A DNA stretch of 64,000 nt, from the NCBI RefSeq assembly GCF_900101625.1, contig NZ_FMYZ01000003.1:496001-560000 (forward strand). The letters run 5' to 3'. Positions within the stretch are counted from its first letter, which is position 1. Every line of letters begins with the position of its first letter. The DNA is from Cupriavidus sp. YR651. Lineage in GTDB: Bacteria; Pseudomonadota; Gammaproteobacteria; Burkholderiales; Burkholderiaceae. Shown here one piece after another: positions 30,163-58,838 of the stretch. The notes beneath the pieces are model-generated. The model was not told the origin of the DNA. It searched no databases and worked only from the letters and a program-made list of their open reading frames with translations. Both the position numbers and the translations under genes were made by a program.

Positions 30163-31245
30163 CTATCCGGCGCGATAGACATCCAGCCGGTTATAGAGCG
30201 TCTTCAGGCTGATGCCGAGCGCGTGGGCGGCCTGCCGCTTGTCGCCATTGAACCGGGCCAGCGTGGCGAGGATGATCTCGCGCTGGGTGTCCGCCAGCGT
30301 CGTGCCCACGCGCACGCTCACCACGCCGTCGACCGTGGTGGGCCGTGGCGGCTGGTTGGCCAGGGTGGGATTGCCGATCTCCACCTGCTGATCGGCCAGG
30401 ATGTAGGCGCGATAGACCGCATTCTTGAGCTCGCGCACGTTGCCCGGCCAGTCGTAGCGCGTCAGCCGCTCCAGCGACCCCGCCGAGAACGATTTGTCCG
30501 TTTGCTCCATGGCGTTGAACTCCGCCAGGAAATGACGGGCCAGCGGAACGATGTCCTCGGTGCGTTCGCGCAGCGGCGGGATATGCAGCGGGAAGACGGC
30601 CAGCCGGTAGAGCAAGTCCTCGCGCAACTGGCCGTTTCGCACGGCCTCCATCGGGTCCCGGTTGGTGGCCGCCAGGATGCGCACGTCGCTGACTAGCTGG
30701 GCGTCGCCGCCCACGCGATGAAACGTCCGGGACTCCAGCACGCGCAGCAGCTTGATCTGCATTTCCAGCGGCATTTCCGTGACTTCATCGAGGAACAGCG
30801 TGCCGCCCTGTGCCTGCTCGAAATACCCCGCCTTCTGTTCCAGCGCACCGGTAAAGCCACCTTTCTCGTGGCCGAAGAGCTCGGATTCGATCAGCGTCGG
30901 CGCGATGGCGCCGCAATTGACCGCCACGAACGGACCGGTGCTGCGGCTGCTGCGCTCGTGCACGGCACGGGCGACCACTTCCTTGCCGCTGCCGCTTTCG
31001 CCCACGGCGAGCATCGTCACGTCCGTTGCCGCCACGCGGTTGAGCTGGGCGATCAGGCGCTGCATGGCGGGCGAGGTGCTCTCCCATAGCAGGGATACCT
31101 GGGCGGGCGCGGCGCGGCGCCCCGGCACGCGAGGTGGCGGCATGGCCCGTCCGGGGAGTAGCGTGGCGGTGGAGGACACGAGGTTTTCGCTTGGGCCGGC
31201 ACGTGCATCTCCCGCTTCGGGAGGGGGCGTGCAGGCGCGTCGCAT
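30163..31245 (-). CDS. Sigma54-dependent activator lacking a sensory domain
   Basis: This is a 360-residue AAA+ activator with a Fis-type C-terminus. After about 50 residues without a recognisable sensor come the AAA+ blocks: [12 protein letters not shown] (Walker A), [11 protein letters not shown] (the sigma54-contact loop, usually GAFTGA), [13 protein letters not shown] (Walker B) and the R-finger region. The HTH is [20 protein letters not shown]. With no receiver or GAF domain it resembles PspF-type activators and may be controlled by a binding partner. It diverges from the receiver-containing paralog at 31587, with almost the same HTH. Its target is unknown; the convergent DUF1326-DUF2182 pair is one candidate. 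Confidence 0.9.
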
Positions 31246-31586: not shown

Positions 31587-32990
31587 ATGCCACACATCCT
31601 GATCGTTGATGACGACGAAAACGCCTGTGCTGCGCTGGCGGAGATTGTCGCGATCGAAGGATTTTCCTCCGCGACGGCCGGCAGTCTGCGCGAAGCCCGC
31701 CTGCAGATCGGCTGGCGCATGCCCGATGCCGTACTCGCCGACTTGCGGTTGCCCGACGGCAACGGCATGGAACTGTTCGAGGAAGTGGGCTCGGCCGGCG
31801 TCGAAGTGATCCTGACGACCGGCTACGCCAGCGTGGAAAGTGCCGTGGAGGCGCTGCGCCTGGGTGCCACCGATTACCTGGTCAAGCCGATCAACGTGAC
31901 GCGCCTGCAAACGGTGCTCAAGCGGATTGCCACCACCGGCGAACTCAAAGCCGAGATTCATTCGCTGCGCGGCGAACTGCGCCGCTATGGCCGCTTTGGC
32001 CGCCTGCTGGGCGGGTCCGAGGCCATGCAGGCGGTCTACGACCAGTTGAGCAAGGTGGGGCCGACCGAGGCCACCGTGCTGCTAACAGGCGAAAGCGGCA
32101 CCGGCAAGGAACTCGCTGCCCAGACCGTGCACGAATTGTCGGCGCGCCGGCGCCAGCCGTTCCTGGCGGTGAACTGTGGCGCGATCTCGCCGACGCTGAT
32201 CGAAACCGAGATGTTCGGCCACGAGCGCGGCAGCTTTACCGGCGCGGACCGCCAGCACAAGGGCTATTTCGAGCGGGCCGACGGCGGCACGCTGTTCCTC
32301 GATGAAATCACCGAGATGCCGCTCGAATTGCAGGTCAAGTTGCTGCGCGTGCTGGAGACCGGCACCTTTATGCGCGTGGGCACCAATCGCGAATCGCATG
32401 CCGATGTGCGCGTGCTGGCGGCGACCAACCGCAACCCCGAGGAGGCGGTGGCGGAAGGCAAGCTGCGCGCCGATCTCTATCACCGCCTCAACGTGTTCCC
32501 GATCGAGCTGCCGCCGCTGCGCGCGCGTGGCGACGACGTCGTGCAGATCGCCAATACGATGCTGGAGCAGCTCAATGCGGAGCAGGGCACGCAGCGGCGC
32601 TTTTCCGGCAGCGTGCTGGAAAGCCTGCGTATGCACGCGTGGCCCGGCAACGTCCGCGAACTGCGCAACTTTGTGCAGCGCGCCTACATCATGGCCGACC
32701 ACGATGTGATTGCCGAGGTACAGATCCCGTTGCAGGTGGCGGCGGCGCCGTCCGCCGCCACGGCGGTGGTGTCGGTGCCGGTGGGGATGTCCCTGGCGGA
32801 GGCCGATCGCCAGCTCATCTTTGCCACGCTCGAGCAATGCGCGGGGGTAAAGAAGCATGCGGCGGAAATTCTGGGCATCAGTTTGAAGACTTTGTACAAC
32901 CGGCTGGAGGACTATGCGGCCAAGGGCGAGTTGCCGGAATGGCTGCGCGCCTCGCGAAACGGTGACGCCAGCCCGCCTGCCGCCTCGTGA
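31587..32990 (+). CDS. NtrC-family sigma54 response regulator
   Basis: This 467-residue regulator has receiver, AAA+ and Fis-type HTH domains. The receiver (1-120) starts [11 protein letters not shown] with phospho-Asp52 in [10 protein letters not shown] and ends VKPINVTRL. The AAA+ domain (about 140-375) has [24 protein letters not shown] (sigma54 contact) and [13 protein letters not shown]. The HTH ([16 protein letters not shown]) nearly matches that of the divergent activator at 30163-31245. No complete kinase is adjacent; the degenerate kinase-like gene at 33132 lies just downstream, so the phosphodonor may be encoded elsewhere. Confidence 0.93.
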
Positions 32991-34997: not shown

Positions 34998-35033
34998 ATG
35001 GCTCGCAACCGCTCGTTCACAGGAGGAGCTCCC

Positions 35034-35507
35034 ATGAATCGCATTGACCCGCAAACGCCGCCGGGCTCGTCACCGGAAGCGCCACCGCGCGGTGCCGCCA
35101 TCATCGGCGGCGTCGAGCAGAACACGGCGGGTCCGGGCCCGTTCGTGATGGCCTCGGACACGCTGGAAGGCAACAAGGTCATCGATCCTTCCGGCGAGGA
35201 GATCGGCACCATCGACCACATCATGCTGGATGTGCTGGGCGGGCGGATCGCCTACGCCGTGATGGCGATGGGCGGCTTCCTCGGCATCGGCGAGAAACTC
35301 CATGCGGTGCCGTGGTCCGCGCTGACGCTCGATACGCGCCGCAAGTGCTTCGTGCTGGGGGTGGAGAAGGATCGCATCAAGGCCGCGCCCGGCTTTGACA
35401 AGGAACACTGGCCCACCATGGCCAATTCGCAGTGGGCCACCAGCATCCACGAGTACTACGGCATCTCGCCGTACTGGGAGAAGGATCGCTACGACCCTTG
35501 GGCCTAG
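35034..35507 (+). CDS. PRC-barrel domain protein
   Basis: This 157-residue protein has one PRC-barrel (about residues 40-110) with EGNKVIDPSGEEIGTIDHIML, read in two blocks EGNKVIDPSGEEIG and TIDHIMLDV, plus YAVMAMGGFLGIGEKLHAVPW. The C-terminal tail is aromatic (EYYGISPYW). PRC-barrels occur in the RimM and photosynthetic H-subunit families; free-standing ones are common in stress clusters with no defined role. The ATG follows CAGGAGGAGCTCCC, a near-perfect ribosome site, so the earlier in-frame ATG at 34998 is rejected. The stop codon abuts the first copy of the 204-bp repeat element. Confidence 0.88.
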   Translation: MNRIDPQTPPGSSPEAPPRGAAIIGGVEQNTAGPGPFVMASDTLEGNKVIDPSGEEIGTIDHIMLDVLGGRIAYAVMAMGGFLGIGEKLHAVPWSALTLDTRRKCFVLGVEKDRIKAAPGFDKEHWPTMANSQWATSIHEYYGISPYWEKDRYDPWA

Positions 35508-35710
35508 GAGGTCGTTTAAAAAAGATCCTGGCGTCGTTGCCGGGTTTGCCACATTCGCTTGCCGTACCAGTTGTACTGTCTGCGGCCGCGCCCTTGCAGG
35601 GCGCGCATGCGCCAGCAGGCGCATGCCGCTACGCAGGCGGATCGCGTGCGATCCGAAACCCCTGCTTCGCCCTAGCCAGGACCGCTTCGCTTCATTTTTA
35701 AACAACCTCC
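35507..35710 (+). repeat. 204-bp MITE-like element, copy 1
   Basis: The ends are inverted repeats: GGAGGTCGTTTAAAAA at the left and TTTTTAAACAACCTCC at the right (one mismatch). Inside are three strong hairpins: CGCCCTTGCAGGGCG, GCATGCGCC/GGCGCATGC, and GGATCGC/GCGATCC. There is no transposase gene and no credible coding capacity. The first base overlaps the stop codon of the PRC-barrel gene. From GGCGTCG onward it is identical to copy 2. A miniature element moved by a transposase elsewhere fits best; a structured RNA or REP-type function is the alternative. Confidence 0.85.
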
Positions 35711-35712
35711 AA

Positions 35713-35916
35713 GAGGTCGTCTCGAAACAGATCCCGGCGTCGTTGCCGGGTTTGCCACATTCGCTTGCCGTACCAGTTGTACTGTCTGCGGCCGCGCCCT
35801 TGCAGGGCGCGCATGCGCCAGCAGGCGCATGCCGCTACGCAGGCGGATCGCGTGCGATCCGAAACCCCTGCTTCGCCCTAGCCAGGACCGCTTCGCTTCA
35901 TTTTTAAACAACCTCC
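35713..35916 (+). repeat. 204-bp MITE-like element, copy 2
   Basis: This is a direct tandem duplicate, 2 bp after copy 1. The left end differs (GAGGTCGTCTCGAAACAGATCCC), with one extra base, while the interior and right end (TTTTTAAACAACCTCC) are identical to copy 1. The identity implies a recent duplication or gene conversion. Confidence 0.85.
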
Positions 35917-35969
35917 AAGGCGTAACCGCGCGCGAGACGCGCGGCGCGCCGGATCTCATGCTGCCCCGG

Positions 35970-36320
35970 TCAAACCTTGTGGTTGACCTGCCCGGGTGGC
36001 CGCTTGGCGGGGTCCGCCTGCATGCCGCTGGCCGGGGGCTGGCCGGGTGGCTCCACGGGCGGCGGCACGCGCGTGGTCAGCTGATTCGACACGCCGAGGA
36101 TGCCCGGCGGCGTCGCGGCGGCTTTCTCGATGCGTTGGGCGAGGTCCACGTCCTCCACGCGGCCCGTGATGGTGACGCGCCGGTTCACCACATGCACGGC
36201 CACGCCGTCTGGCATGTCGCCGCCGCACGCTTCGGCAATGCAGGTGCCGATGCGTTCCCGCAGCAGTTCGTCGTCTTCATCTGGGCTGGCTTGTGGCGCG
36301 CCCTGGTCTTCGGTCTGCAT
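35970..36320 (-). CDS. BON domain protein
   Basis: This 116-residue protein has one BON domain (about residues 18-80): DDELLRERIGTCIAEACG, then VAVHVVNRRVTITGRVED and ILGVSNQLTTRV. BON domains are thought to bind membranes or small ligands and are common in osmotic-stress proteins (OsmY type). The Pro-rich C-terminus (VPPPVEPPGQPP) is unstructured. No signal peptide is present, which is unusual for OsmY-like proteins and suggests a cytosolic place. GAGAGGAACCGTC before the ATG supports the start over the longer upstream frame. Confidence 0.85.
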   Translation of the reverse strand: MQTEDQGAPQASPDEDDELLRERIGTCIAEACGGDMPDGVAVHVVNRRVTITGRVEDVDLAQRIEKAAATPPGILGVSNQLTTRVPPPVEPPGQPPASGMQADPAKRPPGQVNHKV

Positions 36321-36456
36321 GACGGTTCCTCTCGATGGTGTCCGCCCCCGGGTGCGACGCAATCGTCTTGCCCGCGGGATGTCCGCGCCCCCGGCTGGTC
36401 CCTTGTAAAAAGGACACGTCAGCGCGTCGCGCGCCGCCCTTGTAGGACGCCGCCGA

Positions 36457-57979: not shown

Positions 57980-58091
57980 GAGGTCGTTTCAAAAAGATCC
58001 TGGCGTCGTTGCCGGGTTTGCCACATTGGCTTGCCGTATGACTTGTACTGCCAGCGGCCTCACCCTTGCAGGGCGCGCATACGCCGGCAGA
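57980..58091 (+). repeat. MITE-like element, partial third copy
   Basis: GAGGTCGTTTCAAAAAGATCC begins a stretch that matches copies 1 and 2 through CTGGCGTCGTTGCCGGGTTTG, then diverges by about one base in ten and stops at the end of the nirE gene. The right half with its terminal repeat is missing. It sits directly behind the norB terminator. Confidence 0.8.
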
Positions 58092-58838
58092 CTACCGCTC
58101 GCAGACGTCGCTGGTGATCTCCGAGACCACGTGGCCGATCAGAATGACCGCCGGGCTGGCCAGTCCGGCTGACAGCGCCGCGTCCAGTGTCTGCAGTGTG
58201 CCGGTCCAGCAGCGTTGCGCGGGACCACTCGCGTGCATGACCACGGCTGCGGGCATGTCGGGTGCCATGCCCGCGGCCAGCAGCGCGGCCTGGATCTCGC
58301 CGATCCTGCCCATTCCCATGTAGATGGCCAGCGTTGTCTCGCTCGATGCCAGCGCCCGCCAGTCGGGTCCGCCATCGCCGCGTGTATGCGCGGTCACGAA
58401 GGTCACGCCATGACAATGAGCACGGTGCGTCAGGGCGATGCCCAGCGCCTGCGCGGCCGCGGCAGCGCTGCTGATGCCGTTGATCACCTCCACTTCGACG
58501 CCATGCGCGCGCAGGAACGCCGCCTCTTCGCCGCCACGTCCGAACAGCAGCGGGTCGCCGCCCTTGACGCGGGCAACGCTACGCCCCGCCAGCGCATGGG
58601 CCAGTGTCAGTGCATCGATCTGTGCCTGGCTGACGGAGCAGCGGCCACCCCGCTTGCCCACTGAAGCGATGTGTGTGCCGGTACTGGCGTACTGTGCGAT
58701 GTCCGGAGAGACAAGGTCGTCCACGAGCCAGACGTCTGTCGCGCCGAGTATGCGGGCTGCCTTGACGGTCAGCAGTTCGGGGTCGCCGGGGCCCGCGCCC
58801 ACCAGCCAGACCTTGCCTGCCTTGGGATGCCGGTTCAT
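58092..58838 (-). CDS. nirE: Uroporphyrinogen-III C-methyltransferase NirE
   Basis: This 248-residue SUMT makes precorrin-2 by two SAM-dependent methylations, the entry step to siroheme and heme d1. VWLVGAGPGDPELLTVKAARIL is the N-terminal signature; VSVGKRGGRCSVSQ-like and VARVKGGDPLLFGRGGEEAAFL follow, as does INGISSAAAAAQALGIALTHR. It lacks the CysG dehydrogenase domain. As last gene of the heme d1 operon it is assigned to NirE. The stop codon lies at the junction with the third repeat copy. AGGATC precedes the ATG. Confidence 0.9.
   Translation of the reverse strand: MNRHPKAGKVWLVGAGPGDPELLTVKAARILGATDVWLVDDLVSPDIAQYASTGTHIASVGKRGGRCSVSQAQIDALTLAHALAGRSVARVKGGDPLLFGRGGEEAAFLRAHGVEVEVINGISSAAAAAQALGIALTHRAHCHGVTFVTAHTRGDGGPDWRALASSETTLAIYMGMGRIGEIQAALLAAGMAPDMPAAVVMHASGPAQRCWTGTLQTLDAALSAGLASPAVILIGHVVSEITSDVCER

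Follow-up and report, generated by a model that had tools for sequence, protein, structure and literature searches.

Short palindromic mobile elements with a conserved hairpin core behind stop codons in Cupriavidus

Two near-identical repeats behind a stop codon in Cupriavidus sp. YR651 are best read, with slightly better than even confidence, as members of a widespread family of mobile elements, short, palindromic and non-autonomous, in which a single hairpin core lies within a long stem. The elements occur in many copies, and sites filled in one genome are empty in others. Younger copies carry 3-bp TWA target duplications, stop codons are enriched among the insertion sites, older copies are biased towards the sense orientation of the adjoining gene, and pairing is kept through compensatory change. 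A preliminary description of the window (the whole 64,000-nt stretch of DNA analysed, from contig NZ_FMYZ01000003.1) had reported a tandem pair of MITE-like elements near gene ends. The observation holds, on a larger scale than first described, the kinship with the core of the Neisseria Correia element, the spread beyond Neisseria and the variability of the ends having been missed.

The tandem pair and its neighbours

The window locus comprises the following features (coordinates are those of the window).

34998 to 35507, plus strand: gene for a PRC-barrel protein (Pfam PF05239, E 1.9e-11)
35505 to 35507, plus strand: TAG stop of the PRC-barrel gene, abutting unit 1 (read directly)
35508 to 35709, plus strand: unit 1, long class, pairing arms intact (direct reading and repeat search)
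35558 to 35584, plus strand: core of unit 1, CTTGCCGTAC-CAGTT-GTACTGTCTGCG, matching the family core (direct reading)
35710 to 35712, no strand: CAA triplet separating units 1 and 2 (direct reading)
35713 to 35915, plus strand: unit 2, long class, left arm decayed (direct reading and repeat search)
35764 to 35790, plus strand: conserved core of unit 2 (direct reading)
35916 to 35918, no strand: CAA flank 3' of unit 2 (direct reading)
35970 to 36362, minus strand: BON-domain gene, convergent, downstream of the pair (Pfam PF04972, E 3.6e-9)
57980 to about 58090, plus strand: unit 3, truncated (repeat search, direct reading and Pfam neighbours)

Unit 1 reads GAGGTCGTTTAAAAA...TTTTTAAACAACCTC by direct reading of 35508-35709. 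A repeat search of the window aligned units 1 and 2 over 195 nt at 99% identity with a spacing of 206 nt, and recovered unit 3 at 57980 with 90% identity to the pair over 111 nt, bearing out the tandem of near-identical units and the further copy that had been described. The start of the pair had been placed at 35507, which is the final base of the TAG stop; unit 1 begins at 35508. The nearly perfect inverted repeats claimed for both units are present in unit 1 and lost from unit 2, whose decayed left arm reads GAGGTCGTCTCGAAACAG. The flank triplet CAA stands between the units and again behind unit 2, and with the 206-nt spacing the tandem looks as if an element had been doubled together with one flank triplet. 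Unit 3 is partial, its right end being gone. It follows a terminator-like hairpin and a NorB-type gene, and what remains of it extends as far as the stop (58092-58094) of a tetrapyrrole methylase gene that runs convergently.

Within the window pair, no sigma-70-like promoter site and one terminator-like site (0.7 expected) were found. Rfam gave no match in the window at gathering score, and none up to E 5 within 35400-36000. Elsewhere in the window, a 225-nt inverted repeat (30709-30933 and 32157-32381) is 80% complementary, with its arms 1.2 kb apart.

Copy number and size classes

The elements are not unique to this locus. A DNA search of the window's own genome (6.96 Mb) returned 52 matching pieces, and a covariance model, R1, built from 24 short copies of several genera with one gonococcal copy among them, returned 68 matches at E <= 1e-3. 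DNA matches were present in 26 of 60 genomes, these comprising the window's relatives and its own genome; two of the 26, both outside the genus, matched weakly. The copies fall into two classes, a short one of about 112 nt and a long one of about 190-205 nt, which has an extra structured stretch. They are short, have inverted terminal repeats and, as had been noted for the pair, contain no transposase gene. Nested copies were seen at four loci (L340, L353, L371 and L378), where one element lies within the 5-nt core loop of another, inserted at TA or TTA of the host element's loop.

Empty sites, target duplications and loss

The elements were mobile. At the window's site, the upstream gene was readable in 13 of 29 relatives' loci (L240 being left out as a spurious pattern match); all 13 lack the element, and each has its own stop one codon after the same Trp codon, like the window. 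At this site and at two others, the loci compared were the 30 best matches of 60 genomes, a choice that favours filled sites. Of the two others, the gap between pyrB and pyrC (aspartate carbamoyltransferase and dihydroorotase) holds the element in 5 of 28 readable loci and is empty in 23, and the site between the pyruvate dehydrogenase E2 gene and a proteasome-family gene holds a full-length element in 9 of 30 loci, one of the nine decayed, with an internal deletion in one further locus. Wherever filled and empty forms were compared, the stop lies at the same codon. The gene behind the E2 site is assigned to the proteasome family by Pfam; its naming as hslV was rejected, NCBIfam giving no match.

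Several empty loci at the E2 site have short arm-like remains. Such footprints at otherwise empty sites were seen at L292 and L294 there and at L262 in the pyrB-pyrC gap, and suggest element loss through internal deletion.

Identical 3-bp flanks border 16 of 18 copies in genome G022, 8 of 9 in G186 and 7 of 30 in G000, and the duplications of fresh copies (G022, G067 and G186) are TAA or TTA. The flank survey used 18 of 25 loci from G022, 11 of 15 from G239, 6 of 7 from G222, 7 of 9 from G211, 7 of 8 from G134, 26 of 28 single-genome loci and none of 5 from G302, loci with no recognisable core or of unexpected length being dropped. Among 44 stop-adjacent G000 copies, the near side keeps the stop, and the far-side triplet is CAA in 14 and TAA in 8. 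Aligning the flanks, a check put forward in the preliminary description, thus recovered target duplications at younger copies and few in G000, where they are mostly gone. With empty sites, target duplications, many copies and no transposase inside, the proposed identity as a non-autonomous MITE-like element is supported.

Preference for stop codons

In G000, the stop of an ORF of at least 100 codons abuts the left end of 39 of 62 copies (a count that omits detections with an arm score below 10 or within a called gene, and in which at least one row, L006 at 2577, is spurious), against a positional background of 0.6 that is overgenerous, being blind to the scarcity of TWA in a GC-rich genome. 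A crude stop-to-stop mask was too harsh, about half of the TWA sites being stops. Both were superseded by a comparison using called genes from a home-made caller, in which elements and background sites were judged with the same gene calling, and in which, slightly leniently, an element was scored as lying at a stop if one fell within 2 nt of its left or right end. On this basis, 19 of 30 short G000 copies are at a stop as against 15 of 76 non-coding TWA sites (p 5e-5), and 12 of 18 G022 copies as against 9 of 59 (p 6e-5); five other genomes have 9 of 29 copies at a stop and 2 within called genes, versus 13 of 245 sites (p 9e-5). The G000 enrichment holds equally against TNA sites (57 of 275, p 3e-6) and against TWA plus TAG/CTA sites (27 of 170, p 2e-7). 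The gene-end preference first described is thus supported, native stop codons being favoured about 3-6 fold over other non-coding TWA sites, and part of the raw stop pattern is target scarcity.

These data bear on a plainer explanation, that the elements are ordinary functionless MITEs whose arms are palindromic through template switching in replication and whose location follows from the rarity of TWA together with purging inside genes. We consider this rather unlikely. Enrichment against all three backgrounds (TWA, TNA, and TWA plus TAG/CTA) argues against it. It is favoured by G067, where non-coding TWA is common and only 5 of 25 copies abut a stop, and by the decayed and deleted copies at a single site (L288 and L292); in G211, 2 of 7 copies abut a stop. 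Among the 228 pooled copies, in which several species can contribute the same site, older copies are no more often next to a stop than younger ones (42 of 73 copies with identical flanks, 84 of 155 without), as functionless MITEs would have it; the similarity of the two age classes also points to the insertion step as the source of the preference.

Orientation relative to the gene

Among stop copies whose flanks are no longer identical, the core is sense in 71 and antisense in 11 (p 7e-12), as compared with 23 and 12 among those with identical flanks (p 0.09), and the older and younger copies differ at p 0.02. G000 alone has 37 sense, 5 antisense and 2 copies lying at stops in both orientations; G022, rich in fresh copies, has 2, 6 and 5, respectively. 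The older and younger counts come from the same pool of 228 copies, with some sites represented by several species, and arm perfection, used as a second measure of age, gave no clear trend. The sense bias in older copies fits loss or selection after insertion, and speaks against functionless MITEs.

Pairing kept by compensatory change

Unit 1 is stably folded on both strands (z-scores of -4.7 on the plus and -5.5 on the minus strand, with 0 of 200 shuffles as stable), and the fold contains several internal hairpins, in agreement with the preliminary description. RNAalifold on 24 copies gave 34 pairs, 19 of them with double changes. Because different mobile subfamilies could produce double changes, one orthologous site was used instead, that behind pyruvate dehydrogenase E2 in eight Cupriavidus genomes, the window's own included (8 of the 9 full-length copies, the decayed L288 being omitted). 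At this site 98.6% of cells pair, and three positions are doubly changed and still paired, two in the outer arms and one in a 4-bp core stem. The five double-change cells were equalled by 0 of 500 shuffles and the pair count by 10 of 500; sliding the partner by 1-3 columns gave no double changes. Pairing at the orthologous site thus survives through compensatory change.

Compensatory changes can arise from selection or from template-switch correction of palindromes. Arm mismatches are retained at columns 11/102 in 8 of 8 copies and at columns 6/107 in 6 of 8; simple correction should erase them, so that they argue, though not decisively, against it and against functionless MITEs. An RNA role, as an RNase III-type 3' hairpin, may be proposed.

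One arm type offers another reading, a tiny gene, since in the short class it presents GAGG, a spacer and an ATG that opens a reading frame of about 28 codons; L022 and L048 are examples. This is highly improbable: the ATG is there in only 40 of 228 copies, the frame is not kept in other lineages or length variants, and the changes follow the base pairs.

Constant core, changing arms and spread

The family core is CTTGCCGTAC-N5-GTACTGTCTGCG, also written CTTGCC-GTAC-N5-GTAC-TGTCTGCG, and lies within a long stem. A scan of named genomes with the core pattern found at least 107 stretches. In 109 pattern-scan elements among the matches listed, several of them from one genome in places, an element's own arms pair at no fewer than 13 of the 15 positions compared in 79 of 109 cases, as compared with 18 of 322 for swapped and 0 of 109 for shuffled arms. 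Arm sequences range from TATAGTGGATTAA to GAGCCGCTAACAAAAC to GATTCCATTTCCAGTTC. The search pattern itself fixes 22 core bases; beyond these, many elements share CGTTG upstream and GCCTTG or GCCTAG downstream. From one lineage to the next the core is constant, and the arms change yet stay self-complementary, the reverse of an ordinary MITE. The ends that had been described as conserved are so as pairing arms and not as one fixed sequence. The functionless-MITE explanation fits poorly with a core internal loop that lies outside the palindrome and is the most conserved part across lineages (with 22 bases pattern-fixed).

Arms that differ between lineages and still pair, around a constant core, would also be expected if the palindrome moved as folded single-stranded DNA, handled by a structure-recognising recombinase (integron-attC-like or HUH-type) that recognises the core and leaves the arms free; the position behind stops and the sense orientation likewise resemble attC sites. 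We regard this as improbable, as fresh copies are bordered by clean 3-bp TWA duplications, which are characteristic of a DDE-type transposase, and within a genome, for example G022, have one arm sequence in common.

R1 at E <= 1e-4 matched 94 of 399 sampled Burkholderiales genomes and 50 of 158 genera, placing the family in about a third of the sampled genera of this order. The matches listed in the core-pattern scan include Aquitalea, Chromobacterium, Vogesella, Acidovorax, Accumulibacter, Azonexus, Thiobacillus, Methylotenera and Ralstonia, and also Avibacterium, Regiella, Rappaport, Cardiobacterium, Stutzerimonas and two Clostridia MAGs. The family extends across Betaproteobacteria and into several Gammaproteobacteria. 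A core model, R2, was built from 35 sequences, to which Neisseria, Avibacterium, Regiella, Rappaport, Accumulibacter, Methylotenera and Thiobacillus contributed and the Clostridia did not. At E <= 1e-3 it found 99 copies in N. gonorrhoeae DSM 9188, 81 in Regiella insecticola, 24 in Rappaport israeli, 16 in Avibacterium paragallinarum and 5 in Methylotenera mobilis, as well as 89 in an Accumulibacter MAG, 13 and 7 in the Clostridia MAGs and 1 in a Thiobacillus MAG, where MAG assignments may include binning errors. Under strict filters at class level, R2 matched 6 of 369 genomes, three of them in the window's own order, so the family is rare beyond it. Phages gave no match to the G067-type element.

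Search for a mobiliser

A scan for element ends in G067 found 84 end sites, among which a single convergent pair of ends without other partners lay within 3 kb. In G022, assembled in two contigs, it found 51 end sites and likewise one such pair. Neither pair was accepted as an autonomous partner: that in G067 (L313) encloses genes of AraC, LysE and hydrolase type by Pfam, the hydrolase scoring under its curated cut-off, and that in G022 (L590) encloses SnoaL-like and hemerythrin genes (Pfam). Among 46 ORFs beside 26 solitary ends in the two genomes (up to two longest, of at least 150 codons, per end; many without any family), none had a Pfam transposase domain. The search for a transposase with the same ends, suggested in the preliminary description, thus found none in G067 or G022, and the parent transposon may reside in other genomes.

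L590 (2352-4000) carries an interrupted element, its parts lying about 1.5 kb apart around the SnoaL-like and hemerythrin genes, with element ends to the left and right; it represents either a passenger-bearing copy or a rearrangement.

Proposed mechanism and significance

In the explanation that we favour, a transposase acting in trans would insert the palindrome at short TWA sites, with stop codons preferred beyond their share of these sites. The duplication would re-create the stop codon, leaving the gene unharmed. Sense copies would then be kept, their transcribed 3'-end hairpin being a useful or at least harmless folded RNA, and most probably a site of RNase III-type processing or of 3' protection, of the kind reported for Correia elements. 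Several results weigh against this explanation: the failure to find a mobiliser in two genomes, the low share of identical flanks (7 of 30) and the far-side CAA triplets in G000, the lack of a sense bias in G022, the modest stop adjacency in G067 (5 of 25) and G211 (2 of 7), the trendless arm perfection, and the possibility that template-switch correction produced the compensatory changes.

More tentatively, and with somewhat less than even confidence, the core could itself be the real unit of spread, its approximately 22 bases being kept while the ends swap among transposon end types. It would then be either a signal for a structure-recognising enzyme or an RNA domain carried by several transposase systems; the stop codons of GC-rich hosts would be favoured, and genes would gain a ready-made 3' hairpin without damage.

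The elements offer a case of mobile DNA furnishing the 3' ends of genes without damage, and of an element in which the interior is more durable than the ends. The availability of empty sites, fresh copies and fixed sites in easily handled soil bacteria makes the questions of mobiliser and expression testable.

Comparison with known systems

Integron attC sites are imperfect palindromes of similar length that lie behind stop codons, with variable sequence and conserved fold, and thus resemble the present elements. Unlike attC sites, these elements duplicate their target, and their empty sites lie between the same two neighbouring genes as the filled ones. REPs are much shorter, and we know of no target duplication for them; on anatomy (100-200 nt, with 3-bp duplications), a REP-type identity is unlikely. 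The preliminary description had offered a transposon and a structured RNA or REP-type element as alternatives, and the evidence suggests instead mobility together with kept structure. ERIC sequences are, to our knowledge, unrelated in sequence and fold. The likenesses lie in high-copy extragenic palindromes in the case of REP/BIME (with RAYT tyrosine transposases), so described in the accessible part of PMC2817692, and in short palindromic repeats, some at the 3' ends of genes and affecting mRNA stability, in the case of ERIC (accessible part of PMC10969869).

The closest likeness is to the Correia element (CREE/NEMIS) of Neisseria, whose core is also that of the window elements. In a blastn search of PLSDB, the 112-nt consensus matched ten records, from Paraburkholderia (4), Cupriavidus (2), Eleftheria (2) and N. 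gonorrhoeae (2). The two gonococcal records matched at 25 and 26 places, the best over 52 nt at 85% (E 4e-5), and in one gonococcal copy, read over its whole length, the same core stands between near-Correia ends. These two records (NZ_CP119140.1 and NZ_CP119142.1) are of about 2.17 Mb, a chromosome-like size, and are filed as plasmids. Of NEMIS, a search for repeat families in N. meningitidis retrieved the central 46 bp alone, according to the accessible text of PMC2267715, as would be expected if the core is the conserved part.

Correia elements and the present ones share the core, a similar layout, pairing ends, the lack of a transposase of their own and high copy number. Both also have a short and a long class, of 104-108 and 153-157 bp for Correia elements (in the part of PMC2649163 available) and about 112 and 190-205 nt here. 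They differ in their ends: the 26-bp Correia ends TATAG[CT]GGATTAACAAAAATCAGGAC (TATAG[CT]GGATTAA...), or the variants among the end patterns given in the available part of PMC2911385, are absent from the Cupriavidus arms, which are of GAGG type. The Correia duplication is TA, whereas fresh copies in G022, G067 and G186 have a 3-bp TWA (TAA/TTA). A strong stop-codon preference in Cupriavidus, and occurrence in many genera instead of Neisseria only, are further differences; Correia elements were described as confined to Neisseria in 2009 (PMC2649163, in part), and a literature search covering few subscription papers found no report of these elements outside that genus. Correia-bearing mRNA is cleaved by RNase III (accessible parts of PMC2649163 and PMC10969869), and the elements affect gene expression in gonococci and meningococci (PMC2649163, same part). 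The counterpart here is a predicted stable hairpin. Taken together, and with a confidence little above even, Correia elements would represent an already described branch of a wider family.
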